64,000 nt of DNA from Aliiroseovarius marinus. GTDB taxonomy: Bacteria; Pseudomonadota; Alphaproteobacteria; Rhodobacterales; Rhodobacteraceae. The number at the start of each line of letters is the position of its first letter. Position 1 is the stretch's first letter. The translations under genes were made by a program, and so were the position numbers. The DNA is taken from positions 4,338 to 68,337 of the forward strand of contig NZ_ML178717.1 in NCBI RefSeq assembly GCF_004360145.1. Reading direction: 5' to 3'. The notes under the pieces are model-generated. The model did no database searches, was not told the origin of the DNA, and saw only the letters and a list, made by a program, of their open reading frames with translations. This document shows positions 998 through 16,098 of the stretch, in pieces.

Positions 998-2005
998 TCA
1001 CGAGACACCGCTCACCGAGACCTGCCGCGCGGCGCCGGGAAAGGGGATCATCCGGCCCAGATCCTCGTCATAGAGCTTCCAACGCAGGCATTTCACCCCT
1101 TCGATAAAGCTGATCTTCTCGGACTGGATCAACCCGCGGGCCTCCAGATCCTCGTGGGCTTTGCGGATCTTGTAACCCGGGATCTTGGCATTCAGGTGGT
1201 GCAGATCGTGATAGGCGATGTCCATTGTCACCACATCGAACAGCCGCCCCCAATCCAGCACCGAAGACCCCTTGAGCGCGGCTTGTTCGAAATTGAGTTC
1301 GGGTTTCCGGCCCCAATGCACATGTTCGAAATTGTGCAGCACATAGGGGATCAGCCCGCCAAATGTGCAGGCAATATAGATCGACCCAATCCAAACCCAA
1401 ATGCCGGGCCAACCCGCATACGCCCAGACCGAATAGCCCAAGCCCGCCAGCAGAAGATTGTGCAGCACCAGATCCCAGACCCCGGTTTTGAACCCATAGA
1501 GCGGCATACGGCGCAAGATGGCATAAAGGATGAACGGTCCGATCGCGACAAGGATGAATGGGCTGCGATAAATCCGGTAATAGAGCCGCTGTCCCAAACT
1601 GGCCTTGTTCCATTCCGCCAATGTCATCACCTCGATTTCAAACGCGTCACGGCGGTTCAGATCGGCAACATAGCGGTGATGCAGATTGTGCTTATAGCGG
1701 GTGGCTTGATACGGCGTCATGGCAATCGGGGAGAGCAAGGTTCCAACAACGTCATTCATGCGCCGACTGGTAAAAAAGGCCCGATGCAAGCAGTCGTGCT
1801 GGATCATATAGATCCTAAGCCCCATCGCGGCGGCAAGAATCATGAAGGGCACCATCAGCCACCATGTTCCGATCGTCGATAGGGCAAGAACCAAGGCCAC
1901 GACGTAAAGCCCAAGGCTAATCCCCAACTCCCACCATGCGCGTGTGTCGTCGGCCGTCGCATAGCGACGCGCGACCGAATGCAGCGTGATTGGTCCCTCT
2001 GACAT
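998..2005 (-). CDS. membrane fatty acid desaturase
   Basis: This 335-residue integral membrane protein carries the histidine boxes of the acyl-lipid desaturase/hydroxylase family: HDCLH, HNLHH, HNFEHVH and a C-terminal HDLHH, which bind a di-iron centre. Hydrophobic segments lie around the first box (ALVLALSTIGTWWLMVPFMILAAAMGL) and in the middle of the protein. It should insert a double bond, or hydroxylate, lipid acyl chains or a related substrate in the cytoplasmic membrane. An upstream in-frame Met exists at 2071, but the ATG at 2005 has a strong GGGAGGGG ribosome site. The gene is divergent from phnC across 181 bases and has no evident link to phosphonate use. The precise substrate is unknown. 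Confidence 0.85.
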   Translation of the reverse strand: MSEGPITLHSVARRYATADDTRAWWELGISLGLYVVALVLALSTIGTWWLMVPFMILAAAMGLRIYMIQHDCLHRAFFTSRRMNDVVGTLLSPIAMTPYQATRYKHNLHHRYVADLNRRDAFEIEVMTLAEWNKASLGQRLYYRIYRSPFILVAIGPFILYAILRRMPLYGFKTGVWDLVLHNLLLAGLGYSVWAYAGWPGIWVWIGSIYIACTFGGLIPYVLHNFEHVHWGRKPELNFEQAALKGSSVLDWGRLFDVVTMDIAYHDLHHLNAKIPGYKIRKAHEDLEARGLIQSEKISFIEGVKCLRWKLYDEDLGRMIPFPGAARQVSVSGVS

Positions 2006-2186
2006 TTCCCCTCCCAGTTTTTTGTTGTTTCTGGGGTTCTCCTTCACGTTAGCAATCTGACGGGTTTTCAATCAAGTGCGACGGTCGCTGGCCTTCGCGG
2101 CGATGCGGCGTTACAGAAGTTTTGTATTGCCGACACAAAGTTGTTGGGAAACGCCCATATCCCCCCCTCGAAACGAAGGGGGCGAC

Positions 2187-3017
2187 ATGCTGCAGATTAC
2201 AAACCTGACCAAAGCTTTTGGCGACAAGCGCGCGGTGGACAATGTGACCATTTCGGTCGAGCGTCCCTGCATGATCGGCATCATCGGGGCCTCTGGCGCC
2301 GGCAAATCGACGCTGCTACGGATGGTCAATCGACTGGCGGATCCCACCGAAGGCCAGATCCTGTTTCAAAACAAGAACGTCACCCGCCTGAGTGGTGCGG
2401 CGAAACGGGAATGGCAGTCGCAATGCGCGATGATCTTCCAGCAGTTCAATCTGGTGCCGCGTATGGATGTGGCCTCGAACGTGCTGCATGGCACGCTGAA
2501 CCGCCATTCGACATTGTCGACCCTGTTCAACCTATTCCCGAAGGCCGACATTCACCGCGCCATCGAGATCCTCGAGCGTTTGGGCATTGCCGAACACGCC
2601 GCCAAACGGGCCGAGGCCCTGTCCGGCGGGCAACAGCAACGCGTGGCGATTGCCCGTGCGCTGATGCAGGATCCGTCGATCATTCTGGCCGACGAGCCCA
2701 TCGCCTCGCTTGACCCGATGAACGCACAGATCGTGATGCAGACCCTGCGCCGCATCCATGACGAAGATGGCCGTCTGGTCATCGCCAACCTGCACACGCT
2801 GGATACTGCGCGCCGCTATTGCGACCGCGTGATCGGCATGCGCGCAGGCCGGGTTGTCTTTGACGGCACCCCCGAACAACTGACGGCCGGTGTGGCCCGC
2901 GACATCTATGGCGCTGACGACACGTTCAGCGAAGCGGCCACATCCACCGAACTGGGCGTTCTGGACGCAGCCTCACAGGCGGCATCCGAAGAACGCACTC
3001 CGTTTTACCTGCCCTGA
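2187..3017 (+). CDS. phnC: phosphonate ABC transporter ATP-binding protein PhnC
   Basis: This 276-residue ATPase energises phosphonate import through PhnE. Walker A is GASGAGKST, the signature is LSGGQQQR and Walker B is IILADEP, in the order and spacing of an ABC import ATPase. The start at 2187 follows an AAGGGGG ribosome site, and the longer frame upstream lacks support. It is the first gene of phnCDE1E2, 53 bases before phnD. The family assignment rests on the operon and on the PhnC-like segment containing [19 protein letters not shown]. Roseobacter and Rhizobium loci of this type are called phnCDE or phoCDET and may also import phosphate. Confidence 0.95.
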
Positions 3018-3070
3018 TCAACTTGAACCGAACAATCGATGGGACAGGGCGCCCATCAGGAGAAATCCAA

Positions 3071-3973
3071 ATGAAAAAGCTTCTTGCTCTTGCACTGACC
3101 ACAACCGCTCTGGCCGCTCCGGCCATGGCTGCGGACATCACCGAGTTCCGCATCGGCATTCTGGGCGGCGAAAACGCTCAGGACCGCCTGAACAACAACG
3201 AATGTCTGCGTGAATACACCGAAGAAACCCTGGGCGTTGAAGCCAAGCTGTTTGCGCCTGCTGACTATAACGGTGTGATCCAGGGCCTTCTGGGCGGCAC
3301 CATCGACATGGCGTGGCTGGGTGCGTCGGGCTATGCCAAAACCTTCCTGTCGGACCCGGAAGCGGTCGAGCCGGTTCTGGTGAAAGTGAACACCGATGGC
3401 GGCTATGGCTACTTCTCGATCGGCTTTGCCCGCAAGGACAGCGGCATCACCAAGCTGGAAGACCTGAAGGACAAGACCTTCGGCTTCGGCGACCCCAACT
3501 CGACCTCGGGCTACCTGATCCCGTCGATCGAAATCCCGCAGCAGATCAACGCCTCGATGGAATCGGGTGACTATTTCGGTGAAGTGAAATTCACCGGCGG
3601 TCACGAGCAAACCATCGTTGCTGTAAACAATGGTGACGTTCAGGGCGGCGTGACCTGGGCTGACGGTCTGGGTGAATGGGAAGACGGCTATCAGTCGGGT
3701 GCTCTGCGCCGCGCTGTGGATGCCGGTCTGGTCGACATGAACGATCTGGTCGAGATCTGGCGTTCGGCCCCGATCCCGGAAGGCCCGGTTGTGCTGCGCA
3801 AAGCCCTGCCCGCCGATGTGAAAGAAAAGATGACCGCGCTGATGGCTGGTCTGGCCGAGAAAGACCGCGAGTGCTTCTACGGCGTAGCCGCTGGTGAAGC
3901 CCGCGCTTTCGAGCCGATCACCCATGACGCTTACGAAGTGATCATCGAAGCCCGCAAGCTGAAATCGAAATAA
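3071..3973 (+). CDS. phnD: phosphonate substrate-binding protein PhnD
   Basis: This 300-residue periplasmic binding protein captures phosphonates or phosphate esters for PhnCE. A Sec signal peptide (MKKLLALALTTTALAAPAMA, cleavage before ADIT) is obvious. The mature domain has PhnD-type features: GVIQGLLGGTIDMAWLG near residue 75, and the ligand-loop region DPNSTSGYLIPS near residue 145. AGGAG lies eight bases before the ATG at 3071; the Met at 3023 would place the signal peptide internally. A stable hairpin follows the gene, which would favour more PhnD than permease. Confidence 0.95.
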   Translation: MKKLLALALTTTALAAPAMAADITEFRIGILGGENAQDRLNNNECLREYTEETLGVEAKLFAPADYNGVIQGLLGGTIDMAWLGASGYAKTFLSDPEAVEPVLVKVNTDGGYGYFSIGFARKDSGITKLEDLKDKTFGFGDPNSTSGYLIPSIEIPQQINASMESGDYFGEVKFTGGHEQTIVAVNNGDVQGGVTWADGLGEWEDGYQSGALRRAVDAGLVDMNDLVEIWRSAPIPEGPVVLRKALPADVKEKMTALMAGLAEKDRECFYGVAAGEARAFEPITHDAYEVIIEARKLKSK

Positions 3974-3993
3974 GCGATTTTCAACAAGCTGCT

Positions 3994-4025
3994 GGCGGGT
4001 CCCGCGATGTCGGGGCCCGTCTTTT
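3994..4025 (+). terminator. hairpin between phnD and phnE1 (partial terminator)
   Basis: GGCGGGTCCCG (3994-4004) pairs with CGGGGCCCGTC (4011-4021) over 11 base pairs, two of them G-U, with a six-base loop and TTTT at 4022-4025. It lies inside an operon whose downstream genes continue. It is therefore more likely an attenuator or 3' stabiliser that raises binding-protein mRNA than a full stop. Confidence 0.6.
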
Positions 4026-4041
4026 CAAACGAGGTGGGGCC

Positions 4042-4911
4042 ATGAGCAATATCGAGCATATCAACCAGACCTACATGGACATGGTCCGACGCAAACGCCT
4101 CTATGGTGGCATCATGCTGGCGGTGTTCGTGGCTTTGATGCTGGCGGGCTTCCGCACGGCGGATTCGCGCAACGCCGGCAGCTTCATTGATGGCTGGCAT
4201 CGCTTCTTCGACTTCCCCGGCGAGGTGCTGGGCGAAGCGGCCGGCAAACTGGCCGAATTCCCGGCCCATTTCGCGCAATATGCCCCCTCGCTTCTGGAAA
4301 CCATCAATATCGCGGCGGCGTCGACCCTGCTGGGCGCATTGGGCGCGGTGATCCTGTCGCTGCTCGCCACCAGCGGCATGGCCCGCTGGCCCCGCCTGAT
4401 CCCCGTTTTCCGCCGCGTTCTGGACATCATGCGCGCGGTGCCCGAGATCGTGATCGCCTTGGTGCTGATCTTCGTCCTTGGCGGCGGCCCGGTGCCCGCC
4501 ATGATCGCCATTGCGTTCCACACTGTGGGCGCATTGGGCAAGCTCTTCTCGGAAGTGAACGAAAACGCGTCGCTGAAACCGGTCGAGGGGCTGACTTCGG
4601 TCGGGGCAAGCTGGGCGCAACGCATGGTTCTGGGCGTGATCCCGCAGGTCGCGCCGAACTATCTCAGCTATGCGCTGCTGCGCTTTGAAATCAACATCCG
4701 CGCCTCGGCCATCCTTGGCTTCGTTGGCGCAGGCGGCATCGGCTACGAGCTGAAGAACGCCATGACCTGGGGCAAGGGCCAATATGACGAGGCCGCAGCG
4801 ATCTTCCTGATGCTGTTTGTCACCATCGTCGTGGTGGACCAATTGTCCTCTACCCTGCGTGACCGCCTGACCCACGGCAAGAAATCCAACATGATCGGAG
4901 CACAGGCATGA
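4042..4911 (+). CDS. phnE: phosphonate ABC transporter permease PhnE (first copy)
   Basis: This 289-residue inner-membrane permease forms the translocation path with the second PhnE. It has a first membrane helix near residue 15 (GGIMLAVFVALMLAGF) and further helices. The cytoplasmic EAA loop, EGLTSVGASWAQRMVLGVIPQ, contacts PhnC. GAGGTGGGG precedes the start. The stop overlaps the start of the next permease gene (ATGA), indicating translational coupling and a heterodimeric channel. Confidence 0.93.
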   Translation: MSNIEHINQTYMDMVRRKRLYGGIMLAVFVALMLAGFRTADSRNAGSFIDGWHRFFDFPGEVLGEAAGKLAEFPAHFAQYAPSLLETINIAAASTLLGALGAVILSLLATSGMARWPRLIPVFRRVLDIMRAVPEIVIALVLIFVLGGGPVPAMIAIAFHTVGALGKLFSEVNENASLKPVEGLTSVGASWAQRMVLGVIPQVAPNYLSYALLRFEINIRASAILGFVGAGGIGYELKNAMTWGKGQYDEAAAIFLMLFVTIVVVDQLSSTLRDRLTHGKKSNMIGAQA

Positions 4912-6236
4912 GCACCGCGATCCTCACCCCCGCCGAAGCCACCGCAGGCCTGATCCGCGATACCGACGCACTGTTTGCCCGCAAGCGGATCGTTGCCCTC
5001 GCGATCCCGGCACTGATCCTCGCCTACTTCGCGTATATCTTTGTCGCCTTCGACATCGCCGGGCTGCGCGAGCGTGCCAGCTTGGACAATGCGATGACTC
5101 TGGTCAGCGACAGCTACTCCTACAAAACCCACGTGGCCCGCGACAATCGCTCGGGCGAGGTGTCCATTGCCATTGAGGGCGAACGCAAAGGCGCCTATCC
5201 GGATGGGACGTCGCCTGACTGGGTCACCCTTGGCGACGACACGGTCATCACCCTACCCAAAGGCCACGAGGTGCTGTTCTTGGCAGATGGCACGGTGCGC
5301 TATGACATTCCGGGCTACGGCCTTGTCACCGCCGACCCCGGCCGCAGCGGCGTGAACGCAGTTCTTCCCGCCGGTGACGTGCCGGACTGGATCAACGCAT
5401 CCAAGAACCGCCTTGCCATCAAGACCGAGGCCGGACGCCTGACCATCACCCGCAACCGCACCGAAGTGTTCCGCTACGCAATGGGGTGGGAGCTTTTCTT
5501 CTTCACCCTCGACAGCCCCTATCACGGGCTTGGTCCGGTCACGCTGGCCCAACGCGCAGCCAACGGCGAAGCGGGTGCCATTTGGTCCGACTTCTGGAAC
5601 AACCGCATGTGGCAACACCATCAGGTGGCCTGGGCGATTTTCGAAACCATCCTGATGGCCTTCCTTGGTACTTTCGGTGCCGCCATCGTGGCCCTGCCAC
5701 TGGCCCTGCTGGCCGCCCGCAACTTTGCACCCTTCGTTTGGGTCCGCATGGTGACACGCCGTGTCTTCGACTTCTTCCGCGGCGTGGACGCGCTGATCTG
5801 GACCATCGTTCTGGCCCGCGCCTTCGGCCCCGGCCCCTTGACCGGCGCACTGGCGATCCTGATCACGGATACTGGAAGCTTCGGCAAAATGTTCTCTGAA
5901 ACGCTCGAAAACGTGGACGGAAAGCAAATCGAGGGCATCCGCTCGACCGGTGCCAAACCGCTGCAAACCTACCGCTTCGGCGTCCTGCCGCAGATCACCC
6001 CGATCTTCCTGTCTCAAGTGCTTTACTATCTGGAATCCAACACCCGCTCCGCCACCATCATTGGCGCGATCACCGGGGGCGGGATCGGCCTTCTTCTGAC
6101 GCAAGCCATGATCACCCAGAAAGACTGGGAAGAGGTCGCCTATTACATCACCCTGATCATCCTGATGGTGATGTTGATGGACTGGTTCTCGGGCTGGCTG
6201 CGCAAACGCCTAATCGGCGGGCAGGAGAGCCACTGA
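4908..6236 (+). CDS. phnE: phosphonate ABC transporter permease PhnE, long (PhoT-like) copy
   Basis: This 442-residue permease is about 150 residues longer than a standard PhnE. After a first membrane helix (about 27-50) comes a soluble segment of roughly 170 residues, predicted to be extracytoplasmic. The permease core then follows from about residue 240 (FETILMAFLGTFGAAIVALPLALLAARNF). The EAA loop is EGIRSTGAKPLQTYRFGVLPQ. The length resembles the second permease (PhoT/PhnE2) of rhizobial phoCDET loci. Both ends overlap their neighbours, by ATGA upstream and by one base with the acyltransferase gene downstream. Confidence 0.93.
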   Translation: MSTAILTPAEATAGLIRDTDALFARKRIVALAIPALILAYFAYIFVAFDIAGLRERASLDNAMTLVSDSYSYKTHVARDNRSGEVSIAIEGERKGAYPDGTSPDWVTLGDDTVITLPKGHEVLFLADGTVRYDIPGYGLVTADPGRSGVNAVLPAGDVPDWINASKNRLAIKTEAGRLTITRNRTEVFRYAMGWELFFFTLDSPYHGLGPVTLAQRAANGEAGAIWSDFWNNRMWQHHQVAWAIFETILMAFLGTFGAAIVALPLALLAARNFAPFVWVRMVTRRVFDFFRGVDALIWTIVLARAFGPGPLTGALAILITDTGSFGKMFSETLENVDGKQIEGIRSTGAKPLQTYRFGVLPQITPIFLSQVLYYLESNTRSATIIGAITGGGIGLLLTQAMITQKDWEEVAYYITLIILMVMLMDWFSGWLRKRLIGGQESH

Positions 6237-6850
6237 TGCCCAAACTGTCCCCCGACGCCCCCGTCCTGCATCCCGATTGCGAGATCCATAACAGCACTTT
6301 CGGGCGCTACGTGGAAATCGGTCGGGGCACACGGCTGGTGAATGCGCAGTTCGGCGACTATTCCTATTGCGACCGCCACGCGGATATCGCCAATGCGCAG
6401 ATCGGCAAGTTCGCCAATATCGCCGCAATGACCCGGATCGGCGCAACGGATCACCCGCTGGACACGGCATCCTGCCACCATTTCCTCTATCGGTCCGAAT
6501 ACTACTGGGACAATGTGACAGCAGACGAGGATTTCTTCGCCCGCCGCGCCGCCCGCGTCGCCCATATCGGCCATGACACATGGATCGGCCACGGCGCGAT
6601 GGTGAAACCCGAGGTCTCGCTGGGCCACGGGGCCGTGGTGGCCTCGGGCGCCATCGTGACCAAAGATGTTCCGCCCTACACGATTGTCGCAGGCGTCCCA
6701 GCCGCACCCATCCGCGCACGCCAACCAAAACAGGTTGCCGAACGCCTTATGGAACTCGCCTGGTGGGATTGGGATCACGCCCGCCTGCGCGCCTCGCTCG
6801 AAGACTTCCGCACCCTCAGCGCCGAAGCTTTCCTCGAAAAATACGCATAA
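6236..6850 (+). CDS. phosphonate-locus hexapeptide-repeat acyltransferase
   Basis: This 204-residue left-handed beta-helix protein of the xenobiotic (chloramphenicol) acetyltransferase type matches the subgroup found in phosphonate clusters (Phn_thr-fam, TIGR03308). Hexapeptide turns run from about residue 20 to 70 and again from about 110 to 160, with HIGHDTWIGHGAMVKP containing the likely catalytic His. The C-terminal helical region is WWDWDHARLR. It starts on the last base of the phnE2 stop codon, so it is made with the importer. It probably N- or O-acetylates an imported aminophosphonate, a job done by PhnO (a GNAT) in E. coli; the substrate is not shown by the sequence. Confidence 0.85.
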   Translation: MPKLSPDAPVLHPDCEIHNSTFGRYVEIGRGTRLVNAQFGDYSYCDRHADIANAQIGKFANIAAMTRIGATDHPLDTASCHHFLYRSEYYWDNVTADEDFFARRAARVAHIGHDTWIGHGAMVKPEVSLGHGAVVASGAIVTKDVPPYTIVAGVPAAPIRARQPKQVAERLMELAWWDWDHARLRASLEDFRTLSAEAFLEKYA

Positions 6851-6993: not shown

Positions 6994-8193
6994 TTACTCG
7001 GCCGCCAAGGGCATCGCGCTGCCCATCCGGGTAAACCGATGCGCCGCCTCGCCGGCCAGATAGGTGATCCGCCCACCCGAGATCGTCGCCTCAACCCGGC
7101 GCGTATCGCGATTGATCACCGTCAGATCCGCACGCTTTCCGTATTCAATCCGACCACGATCAAACAGACCCAGAATATCCGCCGGGTTCGACGAGATCAT
7201 CGCCCAAGCCTCGGGCAGCGTTCGGATGCCATCATCCACCAGCCGGAAGGCCGCTTGGGTCAGGGCGGGATAGTAATAGTCGCTGACCAAAGCATCACAC
7301 AGCCCGCGCCGGATCAGCTGCTCGGCGGCGATATTGCCCGATTGCGAGCCACCACGCACCACGTTAGGCGCGCCCATGATCACCGGATCGCCTACCGCAT
7401 GCGCCGCGTGGGCGGCCGAGGTCGAGGTTGGAAATTCGCAGATCCGCGCGCCGATCATCGAGTACCGCTCGCGCGTGTCCCCATCGGGATCGTCATGACT
7501 GCCATAGCTCACACCAAGCTGATCGAACCGCTCGGCCAATCGGCACAGATGGCGCGGAACTTCGCTGGACCGTGCGCGCGCGGCCTCGACCGCGTTCATC
7601 AGCTCATTGGGCTGCAAGCCCAGCTTATGCGCCCAGACATCCAGCGCACCCGAACGGGTTGCCGACAGTTTGAGCGCTTCATCAAGGTGGTCGTTGAACA
7701 CCACATAGTCGATCTTGTGCCGCTTCACGGCCTTCTGCAGCCGGTCGGCCGTGTCGACCGTATGCGTCTCGCACCGCAGCTGTACGCGCAGATCGGTATG
7801 AGTGCGCGACTGATAACAACTCATCGCCTCTAAAAAGCGTTCTGCCGCCTCCGGGCCACGATGCCCGCCTTCCCAGCTCCAACCATGGGCGAGCCATGCT
7901 GTGGTCACACCCGCCGCTGCCGCATCCGCGTCGGTTGCACGAAGGGCCGTTTCCACTGGGAAATGCACGCCGATTCGCGGTGCCATGTGCCGTTCAAACG
8001 CATCGCCATGCAGGTCGATGACGCCGGGCAAAATCCAATAGCCGGACAGGTTCACCTCGGGCAGCGCGCCTTTCGAGATCCGCCCGTCCTGTATGACGAC
8101 CGACCTTTGCTGCATCTCGCGGTCCCGCAAGATGGTTGCATGGGTCATCCGAAAGGACGGCAGGGGCTGGGTTTGGGATGATACGCTCGACAT
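6994..8193 (-). CDS. phnM: PhnM-like amidohydrolase (divergent paralogue)
   Basis: This amidohydrolase-superfamily protein of 399 residues belongs to the PhnM family, which removes pyrophosphate from alpha-D-ribose 1-methylphosphonate 5-triphosphate. It carries the family segments PGVIDLHGDAFERHMAPR and GAPNVVRGGSQSGNIAAEQL. Two positions differ from the canonical copy at 14953: HGDAFE in place of HTDNLE, and SDYYYPAL in place of SDYVPSSL. The ATG at 8193 has GAGG upstream, while the Met at 8205 has no clear ribosome site. It lies 82 bases downstream of phnF and is probably co-transcribed with it. It may act on another nucleotide-like phosphonate ester or be a spare PhnM. Confidence 0.85.
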   Translation of the reverse strand: MSSVSSQTQPLPSFRMTHATILRDREMQQRSVVIQDGRISKGALPEVNLSGYWILPGVIDLHGDAFERHMAPRIGVHFPVETALRATDADAAAAGVTTAWLAHGWSWEGGHRGPEAAERFLEAMSCYQSRTHTDLRVQLRCETHTVDTADRLQKAVKRHKIDYVVFNDHLDEALKLSATRSGALDVWAHKLGLQPNELMNAVEAARARSSEVPRHLCRLAERFDQLGVSYGSHDDPDGDTRERYSMIGARICEFPTSTSAAHAAHAVGDPVIMGAPNVVRGGSQSGNIAAEQLIRRGLCDALVSDYYYPALTQAAFRLVDDGIRTLPEAWAMISSNPADILGLFDRGRIEYGKRADLTVINRDTRRVEATISGGRITYLAGEAAHRFTRMGSAMPLAAE

Positions 8194-8275
8194 ACCAGGC
8201 CTCATTCATTGATTGGGCCGTTCCTAATCGCGCGCTGTATCGTGGATGTGACGCAAACGTATCACTTCCGTAACG

Positions 8276-8986
8276 TTAGGCTGTGTGCCCACCGTCAAGC
8301 GTCAGCGTGACGCGGTCCCCAGCGAACCAAGTCAAGCCAAGCTCGACCGGGATGCCGTCGCCATCCACGTTGATGCCTTCGGAAAACAGCGCCGGTGCCC
8401 CTTCGCGCAAGCCAAGGTGGCGCGCTTCAGTGGCGGGGCAGGATCGGGCCGACAGACGGGTCTCCGCGCGGGTGTAGTCCGCAACCCCGTGATGGGCGAG
8501 CGCCGCTGTGACCGAGTTCGTATCGCTCAGTGCCTTCTGCATTTCAGGAAAGCGATCTGCCGGGAAGACGCTGCGAAAGACCGCAATCGGGTGGCCGTCC
8601 GACAGGGACAACCCGTCATAGACATGCACCGATGCGCCCTCATCCAGCTTCAAGGCTTGTGCTTCTTGCGCGTTGGCGCGACGGGTCTCGAATGCCAGCA
8701 TCTGCTTGCCGGGGATCTTGCCTGCCGCCTTGAGGTTTTGGTGAAACCGTACCCGCGCACCAATGGGGTAATCCGTCGGCGCATGCTGCACAAACACCCC
8801 CGCCCCGCGGCGCGAGATCACAAGATCCTGCGCGGCCAGCTCGGCCAGTGCCCGGCGCACCGTGTGGCGGTTCACACCAAACCGCGCGGCCAGCGCGGCC
8901 TCGGTCGCCAGCTTGTCACCCGGCCCATAATGCCCCTGCCGGATTTCGTCCTTCAGGGTGGTCTCGATGGTTTTCCAGATGCTCAT
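8276..8986 (-). CDS. phnF: GntR/HutC-family regulator PhnF
   Basis: This 236-residue transcription factor has an N-terminal winged helix (residues about 5-70, with LAARFGVNRHTVRRALAEL as the recognition helix). The C-terminal UTRA ligand domain runs from about 95 to 230. The HutC/FarR subfamily and the divergent position to phnG identify it as PhnF, the usual local repressor of C-P lyase genes. Its ligand is likely a phosphonate or phosphate metabolite. The 123-base gap to phnG contains an inverted repeat that fits its operator, so it should control both phnF-phnM1 and phnG onward. Confidence 0.92.
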   Translation of the reverse strand: MSIWKTIETTLKDEIRQGHYGPGDKLATEAALAARFGVNRHTVRRALAELAAQDLVISRRGAGVFVQHAPTDYPIGARVRFHQNLKAAGKIPGKQMLAFETRRANAQEAQALKLDEGASVHVYDGLSLSDGHPIAVFRSVFPADRFPEMQKALSDTNSVTAALAHHGVADYTRAETRLSARSCPATEARHLGLREGAPALFSEGINVDGDGIPVELGLTWFAGDRVTLTLDGGHTA

Positions 8987-9064
8987 GCCCGTGGGACCCT
9001 CTGCCAGCTGTCACGAAAGTTTCACAACACTTTCCTTGCCAGAAATGCGCGAATCCGTGATTAT

Positions 9065-9109: not shown

Positions 9110-9580
9110 ATGACAATGGACATGAGAAACGAACTGCCACCCGCTCAGGCCGCGCGCAAAGCGTGGCTCAGCCTGATGGCAAAGGCGCCAGACAGCGCGA
9201 TGCTTGCGCTGTGGAACGCACAAAACTGCACCCCGAGCTTCACGTGGCTGCGCCGCCCCGAAACTGGAACCGTGATGGTGCGCGGGCGCGCGGGCGGCAC
9301 AGGTGCGCCCTTTAATCTGGGCGAGATGACGGTGACCCGCTGCACGGTTCAGCTGGACAACGGCACCGTGGGCCACGGCTACGTGCAAGGCCGCAGCCAC
9401 GACAAGGCCCGCGCAGCCGCACTGGCGGACGCGATGATGCAAGGCGACGCGGCAGAGGCGCTGCAAAGCGCGTTCCTAACCCCGCTGTCCCAACAGCTTG
9501 CTGCCACTAAGGCCAAACGCGCCCGCAAGGCGGCCGCCACCAAGGTCGATTTCTTTACCATGGTCAGGGGGGAAGACTAA
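9110..9580 (+). CDS. phnG: C-P lyase complex subunit PhnG
   Basis: This 156-residue subunit belongs to the PhnGHIJ core complex. With PhnI, PhnH and PhnL it attaches a phosphonate to ribose by displacing adenine from ATP. The sequence matches the PhnG family in length and in segments such as RKAWLSLMAKAP near the N-terminus and HGYVQGRSHDKARAAALADA about two-thirds in. AAGGTG stands seven bases before the ATG at 9110. It opens the phnGHIJKLN operon, and its stop overlaps the phnH start (TAATG). Confidence 0.95.
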   Translation: MTMDMRNELPPAQAARKAWLSLMAKAPDSAMLALWNAQNCTPSFTWLRRPETGTVMVRGRAGGTGAPFNLGEMTVTRCTVQLDNGTVGHGYVQGRSHDKARAAALADAMMQGDAAEALQSAFLTPLSQQLAATKAKRARKAAATKVDFFTMVRGED

Positions 9581-10173
9581 TGCTTGCGACCGCCACCAGC
9601 ACCTCCGCCATGCAGGGCGGGTTTAAAGATGTGCCCACCGAAGCCGCGCGCCAATTCCGCGCCATCATGAACGCGATTGCCCGCCCCGGTCGGATTGAAG
9701 CCGTGGACGGCGCCACGCCCCCTGCCCCCATGTCGGTGGCCGCAGGTGTCATGGTGCTGACGCTGTGTGACCCGGACACCGGCCTTTACCTTGCCGGGGA
9801 TCACGACACCGCAGACATCCGCGCGTGGGTGCAGTTTCACACGGGCGCCCCGATCGTGTCGGCTGAGAAAGCCGATTTTGCGATTGGCCACTGGGACGCT
9901 CTGGCACCGCTGAATGCCTTTTCAATTGGCACGCCGGAATATCCCGACCGGTCGACCACGCTGATTGTCGAGATGGACGCGCTATCGACGCAAGGTGCCG
10001 CGCTAACCGGCCCCGGGATCAAAGACACCGCACGCCTGTCTCTGCCCGATACGGAGGCCTTCCAGCGCAACGCGCTGCTCTTCCCGCTGGGATTGGATTT
10101 CTTCTTCTGCGCGGGCACCCGGCTGGCCAGCCTGCCGCGCACAACCAAAGTGACTGAAAGGGGGGCAAGCTAA
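9580..10173 (+). CDS. phnH: C-P lyase complex subunit PhnH
   Basis: This 197-residue PhnH has the fold of PLP enzymes without PLP and joins the PhnGHIJ core through PhnI. Family marks include FRAIMNAIARPG near residue 27 and GPGIKD near residue 145. Length matches the family (about 194 in E. coli). Starts and stops overlap on both sides, as expected for stoichiometric complex subunits. Confidence 0.95.
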   Translation: MLATATSTSAMQGGFKDVPTEAARQFRAIMNAIARPGRIEAVDGATPPAPMSVAAGVMVLTLCDPDTGLYLAGDHDTADIRAWVQFHTGAPIVSAEKADFAIGHWDALAPLNAFSIGTPEYPDRSTTLIVEMDALSTQGAALTGPGIKDTARLSLPDTEAFQRNALLFPLGLDFFFCAGTRLASLPRTTKVTERGAS

Positions 10174-11273
10174 TGTATGTCGCCGTAAAAGGGGGCGAGC
10201 GCGCCATTGATAATGCGCATGCCTGGTTGGGCGAGGAACGTCGCGGAGATCACGATGTCTCGGAGCTGTCCGTCGCCCAGATCCGCGAACAGCTGTCGCT
10301 GGCCGTGAACCGCGTGATGGCCGAAGGCTCGCTTTATGATCCCGACCTGGCCGCGCTGGCGATCAAGCAGGCACGCGGAGACATGATCGAAGCGATCTTC
10401 CTGATCCGCGCCTATCGCACCACACTGCCGCGCTTCGCAGGGTCCGAGCCGATTGCGACCGAGAAGATGGCCTGCGACCGCCGTATCTCGGCCACGTTCA
10501 AGGACGTGCCGGGCGGGCAGATCCTTGGGCCGACCTTCGACTACACCCACCGTCTGCTGGATTTCAAACTGGCAGCCGAGGGCGGATTATCCGACGCCCC
10601 AGAAGGCGACGCGCAGCAGGGTGACGTCCCGCATGTGCTGAGCTTCTTGGATGGCGAGGGGCTGATCCAGCAGGAAAAACAGGGGGCCAATACGCCGCCC
10701 GACCTGACGCGCGAACCGATGGAATTGCCTGCCAACCGCCCCTTGCGCCTACAATCCTTGGCGCGCGGGGACGAGGGCTTCTTGCTTAGCCTCGCGTACT
10801 CGACCCAGCGCGGCTATGCCCGCAACCACGCCTTTGTGGGCGAGCTTCGCATCGGCGATGTGCCGGTCGAAGTCGAGATCCCCGAGTTGGGCTTCGCAAT
10901 CGAAATCGGCGACATCACCGTCACCGAATGCGAAACCGTGAACCAGTTCACCGGCTCGAAAACCGAATCTGCACAGTTCACCCGTGGCTATGGCCTTGTT
11001 TTCGGTATGTCGGAACGCAAGTCGATCTCGATGGCGCTGGTGGACCGCGCACTACGCTGGGAAGAGCTGGGCGAAGACAATCTGGGCGCCGCCGCACAAG
11101 ACGAGGAATTCGTGCTGTCGCATTGCGACAACATCCAGGCGACTGGATTTTTGGAACACATCAAACTGCCCCACTATGTCGATTTCCAGTCGGAACTGGA
11201 ACTGGTGCGCAAACTGCGCCGCGACACGATGGCCGGGGCGGACAGCACACCCGCACAGGAGGCGGCGGAATGA
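10173..11273 (+). CDS. phnI: C-P lyase nucleosidase subunit PhnI
   Basis: This 366-residue PhnI is the nucleosidase subunit that removes the purine from ATP so that a phosphonate can be coupled to ribose 5-triphosphate with PhnG, PhnH and PhnL. The diagnostic N-terminus MYVAVKGGERAID is intact, as is the downstream block SLAYSTQRGYARNHAFVGELR. Length is close to the E. coli protein (354). The stop overlaps the start of phnJ by four bases. Confidence 0.96.
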   Translation: MYVAVKGGERAIDNAHAWLGEERRGDHDVSELSVAQIREQLSLAVNRVMAEGSLYDPDLAALAIKQARGDMIEAIFLIRAYRTTLPRFAGSEPIATEKMACDRRISATFKDVPGGQILGPTFDYTHRLLDFKLAAEGGLSDAPEGDAQQGDVPHVLSFLDGEGLIQQEKQGANTPPDLTREPMELPANRPLRLQSLARGDEGFLLSLAYSTQRGYARNHAFVGELRIGDVPVEVEIPELGFAIEIGDITVTECETVNQFTGSKTESAQFTRGYGLVFGMSERKSISMALVDRALRWEELGEDNLGAAAQDEEFVLSHCDNIQATGFLEHIKLPHYVDFQSELELVRKLRRDTMAGADSTPAQEAAE

Positions 11274-12136
11274 CCGACTATAACTTCGCCTATCTTGACG
11301 AACAGACCAAGCGGATGATCCGGCGGGCAATCCTGAAGGGACTCGCAATCCCCGGCTATCAGGTGCCGTTTGCCAGCCGTGAAATGCCGATGCCGTATGG
11401 CTGGGGCACGGGCGGCGTGCAGGTATCCGCCGCGACGCTGACACCCGAGGACGTGTTCAAAGTCATCGACCAAGGCGCGGATGACACCACCAACGCCGTG
11501 TCGATCCGCAAGTTCTTTCAAGCCACGGCAGGCGTGGACACCACGGAAGAAACGGATAAGGCGACCGTCATTCAGACCCGCCACCGGATCCCCGAGGCCG
11601 CGCTGAACGAAGATCAGATCCTCGTCTATCAGGTGCCAATCCCCGAACCCCTGCGCTTTCTGGAACCGCGCGAGACGGAAACGCGGAAGATGCACAGCCT
11701 TGAAGAATACGGCCTGATGCATGTGAAGCTATACGAGGACATCGCACGCCACGGAGCGATTGCCACGGCCTATGCCTATCCGGTTAAGGTCGAGGGGCGC
11801 TATGTGATGGACCCGTCGCCGATCCCGAAATTCGACAACCCGAAAATGACCATGCCCGCGATCCAACTGTTCGGCGCGGGACGGGAACAGCGCATCTATG
11901 CCCTGCCCCCCTATACCGAGGTCGTCAGTCTGGATTTCGAGGACTACCCGTTTGAAGCATCAAAAGCCGACCACAGCTGCGAGCTGTGCGGCGCCGATGA
12001 CAGCTATCTGGACGAGGTGATCGTCGATGATCAGGGCGGGCGCATCTTTGTCTGCTCGGACACGGCCTATTGCACCGCGCGACAGGCCGCACAGCAAGAC
12101 ACTCCCACACCCCAAGCTCAGGAGGCCGCGGTATGA
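11270..12136 (+). CDS. phnJ: radical SAM C-P lyase PhnJ
   Basis: This 288-residue enzyme cleaves the carbon-phosphorus bond of alpha-D-ribose 1-methylphosphonate 5-phosphate, releasing methane or another hydrocarbon and the 1,2-cyclic phosphate. The unusual cluster motif is present: Cys237, Cys240 and Cys262 (C-x2-C-x21-C) to hold the 4Fe-4S cluster, and Cys268 at the position of the E. coli thiyl-radical Cys272. The start at 11270 overlaps the phnI stop (ATGA), whereas the longer open frame upstream lies inside phnI. All catalytic residues I can check are present, so the lyase should work. Confidence 0.97.
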   Translation: MTDYNFAYLDEQTKRMIRRAILKGLAIPGYQVPFASREMPMPYGWGTGGVQVSAATLTPEDVFKVIDQGADDTTNAVSIRKFFQATAGVDTTEETDKATVIQTRHRIPEAALNEDQILVYQVPIPEPLRFLEPRETETRKMHSLEEYGLMHVKLYEDIARHGAIATAYAYPVKVEGRYVMDPSPIPKFDNPKMTMPAIQLFGAGREQRIYALPPYTEVVSLDFEDYPFEASKADHSCELCGADDSYLDEVIVDDQGGRIFVCSDTAYCTARQAAQQDTPTPQAQEAAV

Positions 12137-12960
12137 CGCTGCAGAATTCTTCCGACGCGTTTCGGTCTGAATATACCGACCACTCCGCCCCCCACCCGCT
12201 GCTGCGTGTGGTCGATATCGAGAAATGCTATGGCCAGCGCATTGGCTGCACCGGCGTGAATTTCGACCTCTACCCCGGCGAAGTGATGGGGATCGTGGGC
12301 GAAAGCGGCTCGGGCAAGTCGACGCTGTTGAACTGCCTTGCCGGGCATCTGGAACCGGACCAGGGCGAGGTGTTGTTTGACACCCGCGATGCCGGTCTGG
12401 TCGACACCGTGACCATGGCCGAACCTGAGCGGCGCATGCTGTCGCGCACCGACTGGGCCTTCGTGCACCAACACGCCCGCGATGGGCTGCGCATGTCGGT
12501 CTCGGCCGGTGGCAATGTTGGCGAACGTCTGATGGCCGTGGGCGCACGCCACTATGGCCAGATCCGGGACGAGGCGATTGACTGGCTTGGCCGGGTCGAG
12601 ATCAATGAGACCCGCATTGACGACCGCCCGTCGGCGTTTTCAGGCGGAATGCAGCAGCGCTTGCAGATCGCCCGCAATCTGGTCACCGGGCCGCGACTGG
12701 TGTTCATGGACGAACCAACGGGCGGCTTGGACGTCTCGGTACAGGCGCGTCTTCTAGACCTCTTGCGCGGTTTGGTCCGTCAGATGGGTCTGTCGGCGAT
12801 TATCGTCACCCACGACCTTGCCGTGGTGCGTCTGCTTGCCGACCGGTTGATGGTGATGAAAGATGGGCATGTGGTGGAAACCGGCCTGACCGATCAGGTG
12901 CTGGACGACCCGCAGCACGCCTATACGCAACTTCTTGTCTCTTCCGTTCTGCAGGTGTAA
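12133..12960 (+). CDS. phnK: C-P lyase ABC-type ATPase PhnK
   Basis: This 275-residue ABC ATPase does not transport. PhnK docks on PhnJ in the C-P lyase core and is needed for turnover. Walker A is GESGSGKST, the signature is FSGGMQQR (variant of LSGGQ) and Walker B is LVFMDEP. AGGAGG lies just before the start, which overlaps the phnJ stop by four bases. It is about 20 residues longer at the N-terminus than the E. coli protein. Confidence 0.94.
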   Translation: MTLQNSSDAFRSEYTDHSAPHPLLRVVDIEKCYGQRIGCTGVNFDLYPGEVMGIVGESGSGKSTLLNCLAGHLEPDQGEVLFDTRDAGLVDTVTMAEPERRMLSRTDWAFVHQHARDGLRMSVSAGGNVGERLMAVGARHYGQIRDEAIDWLGRVEINETRIDDRPSAFSGGMQQRLQIARNLVTGPRLVFMDEPTGGLDVSVQARLLDLLRGLVRQMGLSAIIVTHDLAVVRLLADRLMVMKDGHVVETGLTDQVLDDPQHAYTQLLVSSVLQV

Positions 12961-12964
12961 CGCC

Positions 12965-13648
12965 ATGATTTCCATTCAAAATGTCGAGAAAAGCTTCACC
13001 CTGCACAATCAGGGCGCGGCGGTGATCACGGTGATGAGCGACGCCAATGTCGAGGTCACACCGGGCGAGTGTGTGGCCCTTGCCGGCGCGTCTGGCGCGG
13101 GGAAATCCACCTTGATGCGGATGATCTATGGCAACTACCTGACGCAGTCCGGCTCGATCCGCGTGGACGGGGTCGAGGTCGTCGGCGCGAACCCCCGCGA
13201 CGTGCTGGACCTGCGCCGTACCACGCTGGGCTATGTCAGCCAGTTCCTGCGCGTGGTGCCCCGTGTGCCGACGCTAGACGTGGTGGCAGAACCGTTGCTG
13301 GCGCTTGGTGAAGACGAAGGTGTCGCACGGGACAAGGCCGCCACCCTTCTGGCGCGGCTAAATATTCCCGAACGGCTCTGGTCGCTTAGCCCGACCACCT
13401 TTTCAGGTGGAGAACAGCAGCGGGTGAACATTGCGCGTGGCTTCGTGCATCCCTACCGCGCACTTTTGTTGGATGAACCCACGGCCAGCCTTGATGCCCA
13501 GAACCGCGAAACGGTGATGTGCCTGATTGAAGAGGCTAAGGCGCGTGGCGCGGCAATCGTGGGGATTTTCCACGACGAATCCGCCCGTGATCGGGTCTGT
13601 GACCGGGTTCTGGACGTGACAAGTTTCCTGCCAAAGGGGGACGCGTGA
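12965..13648 (+). CDS. phnL: C-P lyase ABC-type ATPase PhnL
   Basis: This 227-residue ABC ATPase of the LolD-like branch belongs to the complex that forms the ribose-phosphonate 5-triphosphate intermediate and can bind on PhnK. Walker A is GASGAGKST, the signature is FSGGEQQR and Walker B is ALLLDEP, with the PhnL-type block LGYVSQFLRVVPRVP between them. The ATG at 12965 follows the phnK stop by four bases. Its stop overlaps the phnN start. Confidence 0.95.
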   Translation: MISIQNVEKSFTLHNQGAAVITVMSDANVEVTPGECVALAGASGAGKSTLMRMIYGNYLTQSGSIRVDGVEVVGANPRDVLDLRRTTLGYVSQFLRVVPRVPTLDVVAEPLLALGEDEGVARDKAATLLARLNIPERLWSLSPTTFSGGEQQRVNIARGFVHPYRALLLDEPTASLDAQNRETVMCLIEEAKARGAAIVGIFHDESARDRVCDRVLDVTSFLPKGDA

Positions 13649-14226
13649 TGGCCGTCGCACCCGGACGTCTGATCGCCGTCGTCGGCCCGTCGGGCGTCGG
13701 CAAGGATAGCGTGATGGAGGCGCTGGCCAAGGCGACAGATTTCCACCTTGTGCGGCGCGTGATCACCCGGCCCAGCGCAGCGGGTGGCGAGCAGTTTGAC
13801 GGCTGTGACGAGGCCACGTTTGATGCAGATCTGGCCCGTGGCCGGTTCGCACTGCACTGGCCTGCGCACGAATTACGCTATGGCATTCCGAAAACGGAAC
13901 TGGCCTGTCTGGATCAGGGCCGAAATGCGCTGGTTAACTTGTCCCGCAAGGTGCTGACAGAAGCCCACGCGGCCTTTTCCGGGTTTATCGTGGTGAACCT
14001 CAGCGCTAGTCCCGAAGTGCTGGCGCAACGCCTTGCCGCACGCGGGCGCGAAAGCGCTGATAGCATCGCCAAGAGGCTTGCGCGGCAGGTGGACCTGCCC
14101 GGCGGACTGACCGTGATCAACGTGGTGAATGACGGCCCGCTGGACGACACCGTCAGGACGATCCTTGCAAGCCTCTCCGATCAGGCTGTCGCGGATGCCC
14201 CCAGCGCGATGCGAGAAATCTCATGA
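13648..14226 (+). CDS. phnN: ribose 1,5-bisphosphate phosphokinase PhnN
   Basis: This 192-residue kinase of the guanylate-kinase fold converts ribose 1,5-bisphosphate to PRPP, the last step of the C-P lyase pathway. The P-loop GPSGVGKDS stands at the N-terminus, followed by RRVITRPSAAGGEQFDG, the PhnN substrate segment. An in-frame GTG lies one codon upstream (13645); the ATG is chosen because it overlaps the phnL stop as TGATG. The 3' end overlaps the opposite-strand DUF1045 gene by 46 bases. Confidence 0.94.
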   Translation: MAVAPGRLIAVVGPSGVGKDSVMEALAKATDFHLVRRVITRPSAAGGEQFDGCDEATFDADLARGRFALHWPAHELRYGIPKTELACLDQGRNALVNLSRKVLTEAHAAFSGFIVVNLSASPEVLAQRLAARGRESADSIAKRLARQVDLPGGLTVINVVNDGPLDDTVRTILASLSDQAVADAPSAMREIS

Positions 14227-14882
14227 AACCGGCCCTCTGCATCTTCCCCCACAAGGGTCAGATCCCCCACCACGAAGGGACGCGGCAGGATCGGGGCCAC
14301 CAAAGGTGCCAATACGTCGCGCACCTGCGCGGCGCGGTTGGGGTCCAGCTTGCCAGACAGGGTCAGGTGGAACTTGAACTCGTCAAAGACGTAAGGGTAG
14401 CCCCATTTCACCAGCATCTCGTCCTGCGCGGGCGTCAGGCCCGCTGCGCGGCGGCGGGCCAACTCGGCGTCATTGGCCGGCGCGCGGAACGGATCGAGCT
14501 TGGCCACCATATGACCCGCCAAAGCGGCCAGCGGTGCCTGATCCCCGTCGATCACCAGCGCCAGAAACCGGCCAATTTGGGCCAGCTTCAATCCGTCCAG
14601 CGTGACCGGGGCGACCTGACGTGCGGCACGTTGAAACGCCTGCAAAAGCCCTTCTGCATCGCAACCTTCCGCCAGACGAAAGGGCGGCTTGATCGTGCCA
14701 TGAAACCCGTATTTGCGCGGGGTCTGGGTGATCTTGGCGATCTCCGTCTGCGACAGATCCGGCAGGGTTTGGTGGGGAACTTCGCGACCTGTAACCAAGT
14801 CCCATCCCAACCAGCTGGCCCCGAAGTCAGCCAGCGCGCCCTGTGGCGCCGTGTAGTATATCGCATAGCGTTTGAACTGCAT
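14181..14882 (-). CDS. DUF1045 2H-phosphoesterase-like phosphonate-locus protein
   Basis: This 233-residue protein of the DUF1045/TIGR03223 family is found almost only in C-P lyase loci. Two H-x-T motifs, H61-G-T-I and H172-L-T-L, lie 111 residues apart and are the double signature of 2H phosphoesterases, which open cyclic phosphates or hydrolyse RNA 2',3' ends. PhnJ makes a ribose 1,2-cyclic phosphate that PhnP normally opens, and no PhnP is seen in this locus. This protein is therefore a reasonable PhnP substitute (inference). AGAGGG precedes the ATG at 14882. It is divergent from phnM2 and overlaps phnN tail to tail. Confidence 0.88.
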   Translation of the reverse strand: MQFKRYAIYYTAPQGALADFGASWLGWDLVTGREVPHQTLPDLSQTEIAKITQTPRKYGFHGTIKPPFRLAEGCDAEGLLQAFQRAARQVAPVTLDGLKLAQIGRFLALVIDGDQAPLAALAGHMVAKLDPFRAPANDAELARRRAAGLTPAQDEMLVKWGYPYVFDEFKFHLTLSGKLDPNRAAQVRDVLAPLVAPILPRPFVVGDLTLVGEDAEGRFHEISRIALGASATA

Positions 14883-14952
14883 TTCACCCTCTTCCGGTCC
14901 GATTGTGCTATTCAAAATCGGCCCTTCTCTGACAGTAAAGCGTGACACTCAG

Positions 14953-16098
14953 ATGACACAGACATTCACCCTCGCCAACGCCAAACTTGTTCTGGAAAAC
15001 GAGGTTATTACCGGGGCCTTGACCGTGACCAACGGCAAGATCACAGCCATTGACCAAGGTACCCAAGTGCCGCAGGGCGCCGAGGACTGCTTTGGCGACT
15101 ATGTCGCGCCGGGCTTGGTCGAACTGCACACCGACAATCTTGAGCGGCACATCCGCCCGCGTCCCCGGGTGGACTGGCCGCATGACGCCGCGATTGTCGC
15201 CCATGACGCCGAGCTCGCCTCGGTCGGGATTACCACTGTGTTCGATGCGCTGCGCGTCGGCTCGATCCATTCGGATGGGCGCAAGAACTATGGCAAATAT
15301 GCCCGTGCGCTTGCCGATGAAATCCTGTCGCTGCGAGCCAAAGGCGGATTGAAAATCTCGCACCATCTGCATTTGCGCGCCGAGATCTGCTCGGAAACCC
15401 TGCCCGAAGAACTGGCCGAGTTTTCACCCGACGACCGCGTGGGCATTGTCAGCATGATGGACCACACGCCCGGGCAACGGCAGTTCACCGATGTCAGCAA
15501 ATTCAAGGCCTATATCCAAGGCAAATACGCCATGCAGGATGCCGAGTTCGAGGAATACATCGCCTTTCTAACCGGGCTGCAGGATAAGCTGGGTGTGGCG
15601 CATGAACGGGCCACGGTGGACCATGCCGCACGTCTAGGGGCGACCCTTGCCAGCCACGATGACACGACCGCAGAACAGGTTGCGACCTCGGCGGGCTATG
15701 GTATCCATCTGGCCGAATTCCCCACCACGGTCGAAGCCGCGCGCGCCAACCATGGTGCGGGTATCGCCAACATCATGGGCGCCCCCAATGTTGTGCGCGG
15801 CGGATCGCATTCCGGAAACGTGGCGGCGTCTGAGCTGGCCGAACTGGACCTCTTGGACATTCTGTCGTCGGATTACGTGCCCTCGTCGCTGATGCTGGCC
15901 GCCCTTCAACTGGGGGACATGTGGGGCGACATGGCTCGCGGTCTGGGAACCGTCACCCATGCACCCGCCCGCGCGGTCGGACTGGAAGATCGGGGCGCGA
16001 TTGCCATCGGCAAGCGCGCAGACCTGATCCGGTTTGCCCGCTTTGAACACGCGCCCGTCCTGCACGGCGTGTGGTCCGAGGGGCGTCGGGTCGGGTAA
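14953..16098 (+). CDS. phnM: ribose 1-methylphosphonate 5-triphosphate diphosphatase PhnM
   Basis: This 381-residue metal-dependent amidohydrolase removes pyrophosphate from alpha-D-ribose 1-methylphosphonate 5-triphosphate before PhnJ acts. It has the canonical PhnM signatures: APGLVELHTDNLERHIRPR with the H-x-D metal ligands, SMMDHTPGQRQF, ASHDDT, and GAPNVVRGGSHSGNVAASEL followed by SSDYVPSSL. This is the copy closest to E. coli PhnM. The ATG at 14953 has no strong ribosome site, but earlier Met codons reach back into the opposite-strand gene. It probably has its own promoter in the 70-base gap. Confidence 0.95.
   Translation: MTQTFTLANAKLVLENEVITGALTVTNGKITAIDQGTQVPQGAEDCFGDYVAPGLVELHTDNLERHIRPRPRVDWPHDAAIVAHDAELASVGITTVFDALRVGSIHSDGRKNYGKYARALADEILSLRAKGGLKISHHLHLRAEICSETLPEELAEFSPDDRVGIVSMMDHTPGQRQFTDVSKFKAYIQGKYAMQDAEFEEYIAFLTGLQDKLGVAHERATVDHAARLGATLASHDDTTAEQVATSAGYGIHLAEFPTTVEAARANHGAGIANIMGAPNVVRGGSHSGNVAASELAELDLLDILSSDYVPSSLMLAALQLGDMWGDMARGLGTVTHAPARAVGLEDRGAIAIGKRADLIRFARFEHAPVLHGVWSEGRRVG

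Follow-up and report, generated by a model that had tools for sequence, protein, structure and literature searches.

A DUF1045 protein as the probable 2H-type replacement for PhnP in the C-P lyase locus of Aliiroseovarius marinus

The phn locus of Aliiroseovarius marinus encodes a C-P lyase but no PhnP, raising the question of which enzyme opens the cyclic phosphate that PhnJ releases. The gene that very probably answers it occupies positions 14181..14882 on the minus strand of the window, the whole 64,000-nucleotide stretch of DNA that we analysed, and encodes a 233-residue protein of the DUF1045/TIGR03223 family, a predicted 2H-type phosphoribosyl 1,2-cyclic phosphodiesterase. We propose that this protein belongs to the 2H phosphoesterases, probably works without metal and takes the place of PhnP, an unrelated metal-dependent enzyme.

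The phn locus and the search for PhnP in its genome

The source genome (3.13 Mb in 33 contigs) is 99.98% complete. Its locus is ordered phnCDE1E2, hexapeptide transferase, phnM-like, phnF, phnGHIJKLN, DUF1045, phnM, with the phnM-like gene, phnF and DUF1045 on the minus strand. Profile searches identified, all on the plus strand, the transporter genes phnC, phnD, phnE1 and phnE2 (2187..6236), phnG (9110..9580), phnH (9580..10173), phnI (10173..11273; PF05861, 2.3e-162), phnJ, for C-P bond cleavage and release of the cyclic phosphate (11270..12136; PF06007, 5.6e-142, with no NCBIfam model matching at 1e-30), phnK (12130..12960; TIGR02323, 389 bits), phnL (12965..13648; TIGR02324, 310.2 bits), phnN, for ribose 1,5-bisphosphokinase (13645..14226; TIGR02322, 169.6 bits, cut-off 156), and phnM (14953..16098; TIGR02318, 428.8 bits, cut-off 390.55), whose start codon was read from the sequence. 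The DUF1045 gene is convergent with phnN, their ends overlapping by 46 bp, and divergent from phnM. Between the transporter and lyase genes are a hexapeptide-repeat transferase of phn loci (6236..6850, plus strand; TIGR03308, 305.2 bits) and, on the minus strand, the GntR regulator gene phnF (8276..8986; TIGR02325, 215.4 bits) beside a gene for a second PhnM-like amidohydrolase (6994..8205). The latter matches NF011987 (390 bits) better than the phnM model TIGR02318, where its 306.9 bits fall short of the cut-off; a published marine Rhodobacteraceae cluster likewise has a second phnM-like gene, named phnM1 (PMC3840354). A fatty acid desaturase gene (998-2071, minus strand) adjoins phnC. An earlier sequence-only reading had held that the locus contains all steps but PhnP, and by profiles the C-P lyase cluster is indeed otherwise complete.

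That reading had also assigned the frame at 14181..14882 to DUF1045. The minus-strand frame, taken from its ATG, bears this out, belonging both to PF06299 (3.1e-55, 186.9 bits, curated cut-off 24.3) and to TIGR03223, 'putative phosphonate metabolism protein' (261.7 bits, cut-off 248.95). Its closest relatives, among the matches listed, are mostly named as Rhodobacterales genera, and phnJ is within the examined stretch at 54 of the best 80 DUF1045 loci.

A phnP gene elsewhere in the genome would count against the proposal. The PhnP profile TIGR03307 gave no match above its cut-off of 272.25 in the whole genome; its single match, at 52.1 bits, is on another contig (G000:C12:8329-9105). If this metallo-beta-lactamase opened the cyclic phosphate, DUF1045 would have another role in the cluster. 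The protein is a distant relative of PhnP (52-55 bits) and carries the HxHxDH motif, yet its score for the GPMC MBL model NF038231, 241 bits, though under that model's cut-off of 360, far exceeds the 55 bits for PhnP, and it lacks the CxCxxC motif present in 14/14 PhnP proteins checked, of 21. CxCxxC is not itself proof of PhnP, since all five weak PhnP relatives checked from the extra-draw DUF1045 genomes have it too. The frames ahead of the gene are, we presume, holB-like and tatD-like. Weak TIGR03307 matches of this kind are common, being found in 11/14 control genomes, with E. coli the only one above cut-off. A role for this metallo-beta-lactamase in the pathway would moreover leave unexplained the non-overlap of PhnP and DUF1045 described below, and we consider it very improbable.

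The PHP-type enzyme Elen0235 of Eggerthella cleaves the two ester bonds in turn to ribose 5-phosphate plus phosphate. A PHP-type phosphodiesterase acting in this way would bypass PhnN, yet phnN is kept in the locus. No stand-alone PHP enzyme was found in the whole genome with PF02811, whose only two matches fall in frames 1174 and 1155 codons long, presumably DNA polymerase III alpha subunits by their size. On the other side, a Phaeobacter PHP protein is induced by phosphate starvation (PMC10132767). We give this route almost no chance of operating here.

Catalytic motifs, predicted fold and proposed reaction

Two HxT/S motifs mark the 2H phosphoesterase superfamily. The window protein has three HxT triplets, at residues 37 (HQT), 61 (HGT) and 172 (HLT), and its predicted catalytic motifs are His61-Gly-Thr63 and His172-Leu-Thr174. 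His61 and His172 were the residues originally singled out, and their numbering is confirmed; H61, T63, H172 and T174 are invariant in alignments A1 (20 sequences) and A2 (58). An HxT pair 90-140 residues apart is found in 121/122 DUF1045 rows, with a spacing of 109-115 (pairs within 100-125), the one exception, L146, being an unrelated, wrong reading frame taken by the script; shuffles of the window protein yielded a comparable pair in 0.5%. The metallo-beta-lactamase motif HxHxDH, a feature of PhnP, is absent from the 233-residue sequence. The Pfam 2H model PF13563 gives the window protein itself 23.2 bits, below the cut-off of 27, and matches 14/20 members of A1 at E<=0.001 (best 2.8e-10), while LigT_PEase matches 11/20.

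An AlphaFold2 model built from 58 aligned sequences (pLDDT 96.1, pTM 0.92) has 2H enzymes as its best matches both in Foldseek and in VIA-align (Z 13-15.5). The top solved structure is YjcG (2d4g; Z 15.5, 165 residues aligned, 3.1 Å), followed by the Arabidopsis cyclic phosphodiesterase 1jh6 (Z 13.5, 169 aligned, 3.7 Å), LigT (Z 13.4, 164 aligned, 3.7 Å), human Usb1 (Z 12.9) and AKAP18 (Z 12.7). Foldseek returned 21 matches below E 0.001, among them the same bacterial and plant 2H enzymes. Sequence searches of solved structures found none of DUF1045: one gave five matches, the best (E 0.05) a kinase, and a second gave YjcG alone (E 0.51).

By analogy we infer the substrate and the bond cleaved, the parts played by the histidines and threonines, and the independence of metal. 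PhnJ releases 5-phospho-alpha-D-ribose 1,2-cyclic phosphate; of His61 and His172, one would activate water to attack the phosphorus and the other would donate a proton to the departing O2, with the phosphoryl oxygens held by Thr63 and Thr174. This would give ribose 1,5-bisphosphate, which PhnN would then convert to PRPP.

Distribution, phosphate control and copies away from C-P lyase

The sequence-only reading had suggested surveying whether phnP and DUF1045 exclude one another. We drew 398 Pseudomonadota genomes, 83 with PhnJ over cut-off and 315 others. Full DUF1045 was found in 69 and PhnP over cut-off in 19 (profile search at E 1e-20); the 19 accepted PhnP matches are set off from the rest, with no score between 296 and 108 bits. 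Among the 83 PhnJ genomes, 62 have DUF1045, 19 have PhnP, none has both and 2 have neither. A second draw, from the order of genome G246, had PhnJ in 17/200 genomes, 3 of them already counted; the 14 new ones divide into 11 with DUF1045, 2 with PhnP and 1 with neither, again with no overlap. Combined, the 97 PhnJ genomes comprise 73 with DUF1045, 21 with PhnP, 3 with neither and none with both. The E. coli control carries PhnP beside PhnJ and lacks DUF1045. Left out were G040 from the PhnJ set (18.9 bits, in-frame stops) and the weak DUF1045 matches of G210, G288 and G371.

The split is clean in all 97 genomes, yet few evolutionary events, about two switches, lie behind it. Mapped onto a PhnJ tree of these genomes, the DUF1045 and PhnP labels need just two changes, and the raw count therefore overstates the exclusion. 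An independent-pairs test of the split has 2-3 pairs and no power, and Fisher values for co-occurrence in the first draw ignore relatedness and are not a gauge of its strength. The PhnJ proteins of G048, G366, G471 and G540 form a very divergent group set on a long branch, and each of these genomes has PhnP. Several genomes (G067, G071, G194, G339) have two or three PhnJ copies, one per genome clearly lower-scoring (379-397 bits); in G194 two fragmented DUF1045 copies (G194:C103:104374-117931) share a contig with two of its three phnJ copies.

In one of the three PhnJ genomes with neither enzyme, G535, PhnJ is at a contig end. Loci L085 (G374) and L086 (G377) have the genes from phnF to phnN with neither DUF1045 nor PhnP over cut-off, and group with PhnP-bearers on the PhnJ tree; from these two, a third enzyme for the cyclic phosphate step may exist. 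PhnP paralogues nearer than that of the window genome are present in 4/14 extra genomes (82-108 bits) and four first-draw genomes (77-86 bits), all DUF1045-bearing, and such weak paralogues might share the cyclic phosphate step in some DUF1045 genomes.

A link to phosphate supply is suggested by a direct repeat, TGTCAY-N5-TGTCAY, which we take to be the Pho-box pattern. One Pho-box-like repeat, TGTCATCTGAGTGTCAC (14942..14958, minus strand), lies 60-76 bp ahead of the DUF1045 start codon and overlaps that of phnM; another, TGTCACGAAAGTTTCAC (9009..9025, plus strand, 1 mismatch), is between phnF and phnG. With the stricter TGTCAC-N5-TGTCAC the window contains no one-mismatch site besides these two, while at three mismatches there are 41 sites, no more than the 44.9 expected by chance. 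We scanned 160 bp upstream at linked loci (those with phnJ and phnM) and 200 bp at others. On the DUF1045 strand of linked loci the repeat occurs at <=1 mismatch in 25/53 and at <=2 mismatches in 48/53, against 0.1% and 0.8% in shuffles and 2/53 and 14/53 on the opposite strand; in twelve linked loci inspected it starts 40 to 92 bp ahead of the DUF1045 match. The conserved site fits a report that a Phaeobacter MED193 protein labelled DUF1045 behaves as PhnI, J, L and M do, rising under phosphate starvation and going undetected when phoB is mutated (PMC10132767).

DUF1045 also occurs away from C-P lyase. It is in 7/315 first-draw genomes without PhnJ, and 15 of the best 80 DUF1045 loci have none of phnI, phnJ, phnN and the two kinds of phnM; the genomes behind these unlinked loci have PhnJ elsewhere in 9 cases, with none found in 6. 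DUF1045 therefore does not imply C-P lyase: in total 13 genomes where no PhnJ was found have a copy, with catalytic residues kept. For 6 of the 13 completeness is not given, and since metagenome assemblies and uncultured isolates are among them, PhnJ may be missing from the assembled sequence. Two loci in the PhnJ-less count, L079 and L081, adjoin phnM or phnN. The word 'dedicated' in the earlier reading is accordingly too strong for the family as a whole.

These copies raise the possibility that DUF1045 is a general 2H enzyme, acting on 2',3'-cyclic nucleotides, RNA ends or ADP-ribose cyclic phosphate, with its phn location secondary. The 2H fold serves many substrates, and the genome of the window carries KptA, whose reaction yields ADP-ribose cyclic phosphate (PMC6333775). 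Against this, 62 of the 69 DUF1045 genomes among the 398 drawn have PhnJ, the Pho-box-like site is conserved at linked loci as given above, the window genome has one further 2H protein (PF13563) besides DUF1045, and KptA is in only 1/13 of the PhnJ-less DUF1045 genomes. We regard a general role as very improbable. That last count also led us to reject KptA as the reason for PhnJ-less DUF1045; in the family of the window genome KptA is in 4/19 PhnJ genomes and 0/4 genomes with neither gene.

PhnJ-less copies differ from other unlinked copies upstream: a Pho-box-like site at <=2 mismatches precedes 1/13 of them as against 6/9 of the unlinked copies scanned where the genome does have PhnJ (Fisher p 0.007, ignoring relatedness; L161, with 77 bases upstream, left out, and the starts of L077, L078 and L092 estimated), and such a repeat is in 1.9% of random 200-bp stretches. 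A separate subfamily of PhnJ-less copies is unsupported, since the DUF1045 tree requires 11 label changes, compared with 12.5 for shuffled labels (35/500 shuffles as low); in that tree 'linked' means every row not otherwise labelled, some of them unlinked, L146 is included and five duplicate loci were dropped. No shared neighbour of the copies away from phn genes was found by blastp with crude gene calls, the widest non-DUF1045 cluster covering 6 loci. It is possible, though somewhat less likely than not, that the family has two roles: PhoB-controlled replacement of PhnP in C-P lyase genomes, and action on another cyclic phosphate in scattered PhnJ-less genomes. The latter copies suggest a further, unnamed cyclic phosphate.

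For C-P lyase genomes, the fold, the motifs, the operon slot, the absence from the window genome of a PhnP over the cut-off and of a stand-alone PHP match, and the non-overlap in 97 genomes all support DUF1045 as a 2H phosphodiesterase in place of PhnP.

Published proposals and known systems

DUF1045 as a PhnP analogue is already published (PMC3840354, PMC10574752, PMC8235418), the proposal having been in print since at least 2013. A survey of 54 operons (citing Podzelinska 2009) counts PhnP in 27 and, in 16 that lack phnP, the 2H phosphodiesterase gene rcsF (PMC10574752); rcsF is called probably analogous to phnP (PMC3840354), an analogy repeated in PMC6981132; and DUF1045 is a proposed phosphoribosyl cyclic phosphodiesterase whose function is called uncertain, with Hove-Jensen 2014 cited (PMC8235418). 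The Rhodobacteraceae fosmid B3_TF_MPn_2, with rcsF but no phnP, as a whole gives growth on methylphosphonate to E. coli lacking phnHIJKLMNOP (PMC3840354). For Roseovarius HI0049 the order phnM, rcsF, phnNL is given (PMC5649143), which puts rcsF in the slot of DUF1045 in the window; from this gene order, the rcsF of phn operons is probably DUF1045. The literature searched, with subscription papers mostly outside its coverage, contained no assay of an isolated DUF1045 or rcsF protein. To this we add a distribution weighed on a PhnJ tree, the conservation of the Pho-box-like site, the absence from the genome of PhnP over cut-off and of a stand-alone PHP enzyme, and the PhnJ-less copies. The proposed role supplies the missing step of C-P lyase breakdown in many alphaproteobacteria, among them marine Rhodobacteraceae whose clusters allow growth on methylphosphonate, and it offers a clear example of two unrelated enzymes that probably carry out the same step.

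The window protein is a member of the TIGR03223/DUF1045 family with nothing essential different. E. coli PhnP is proposed to share its reaction and pathway position and differs in being a metallo-beta-lactamase with HxHxDH. Bacillus YjcG and E. coli LigT share its 2H fold at 17-18% identity in the structural alignments above; to our knowledge neither is known from phn loci. The Arabidopsis Appr>p cyclic phosphodiesterase (1fsi, 1jh6) is likewise similar in fold and has a ribose 1,2-cyclic phosphate as its own substrate, with 12% identity to DUF1045, which is about 50 residues longer; our guess is that the extra part consists of helices 138-145 and 151-160 together with G161-Y162 and V165, invariant residues that precede the second HxT. 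Because the C-P lyase intermediate is a 1,2-cyclic phosphate on a 5-phosphorylated ribose, the same cyclic phosphate as in Appr>p, both the fold and the reaction proposed for DUF1045 have precedent.
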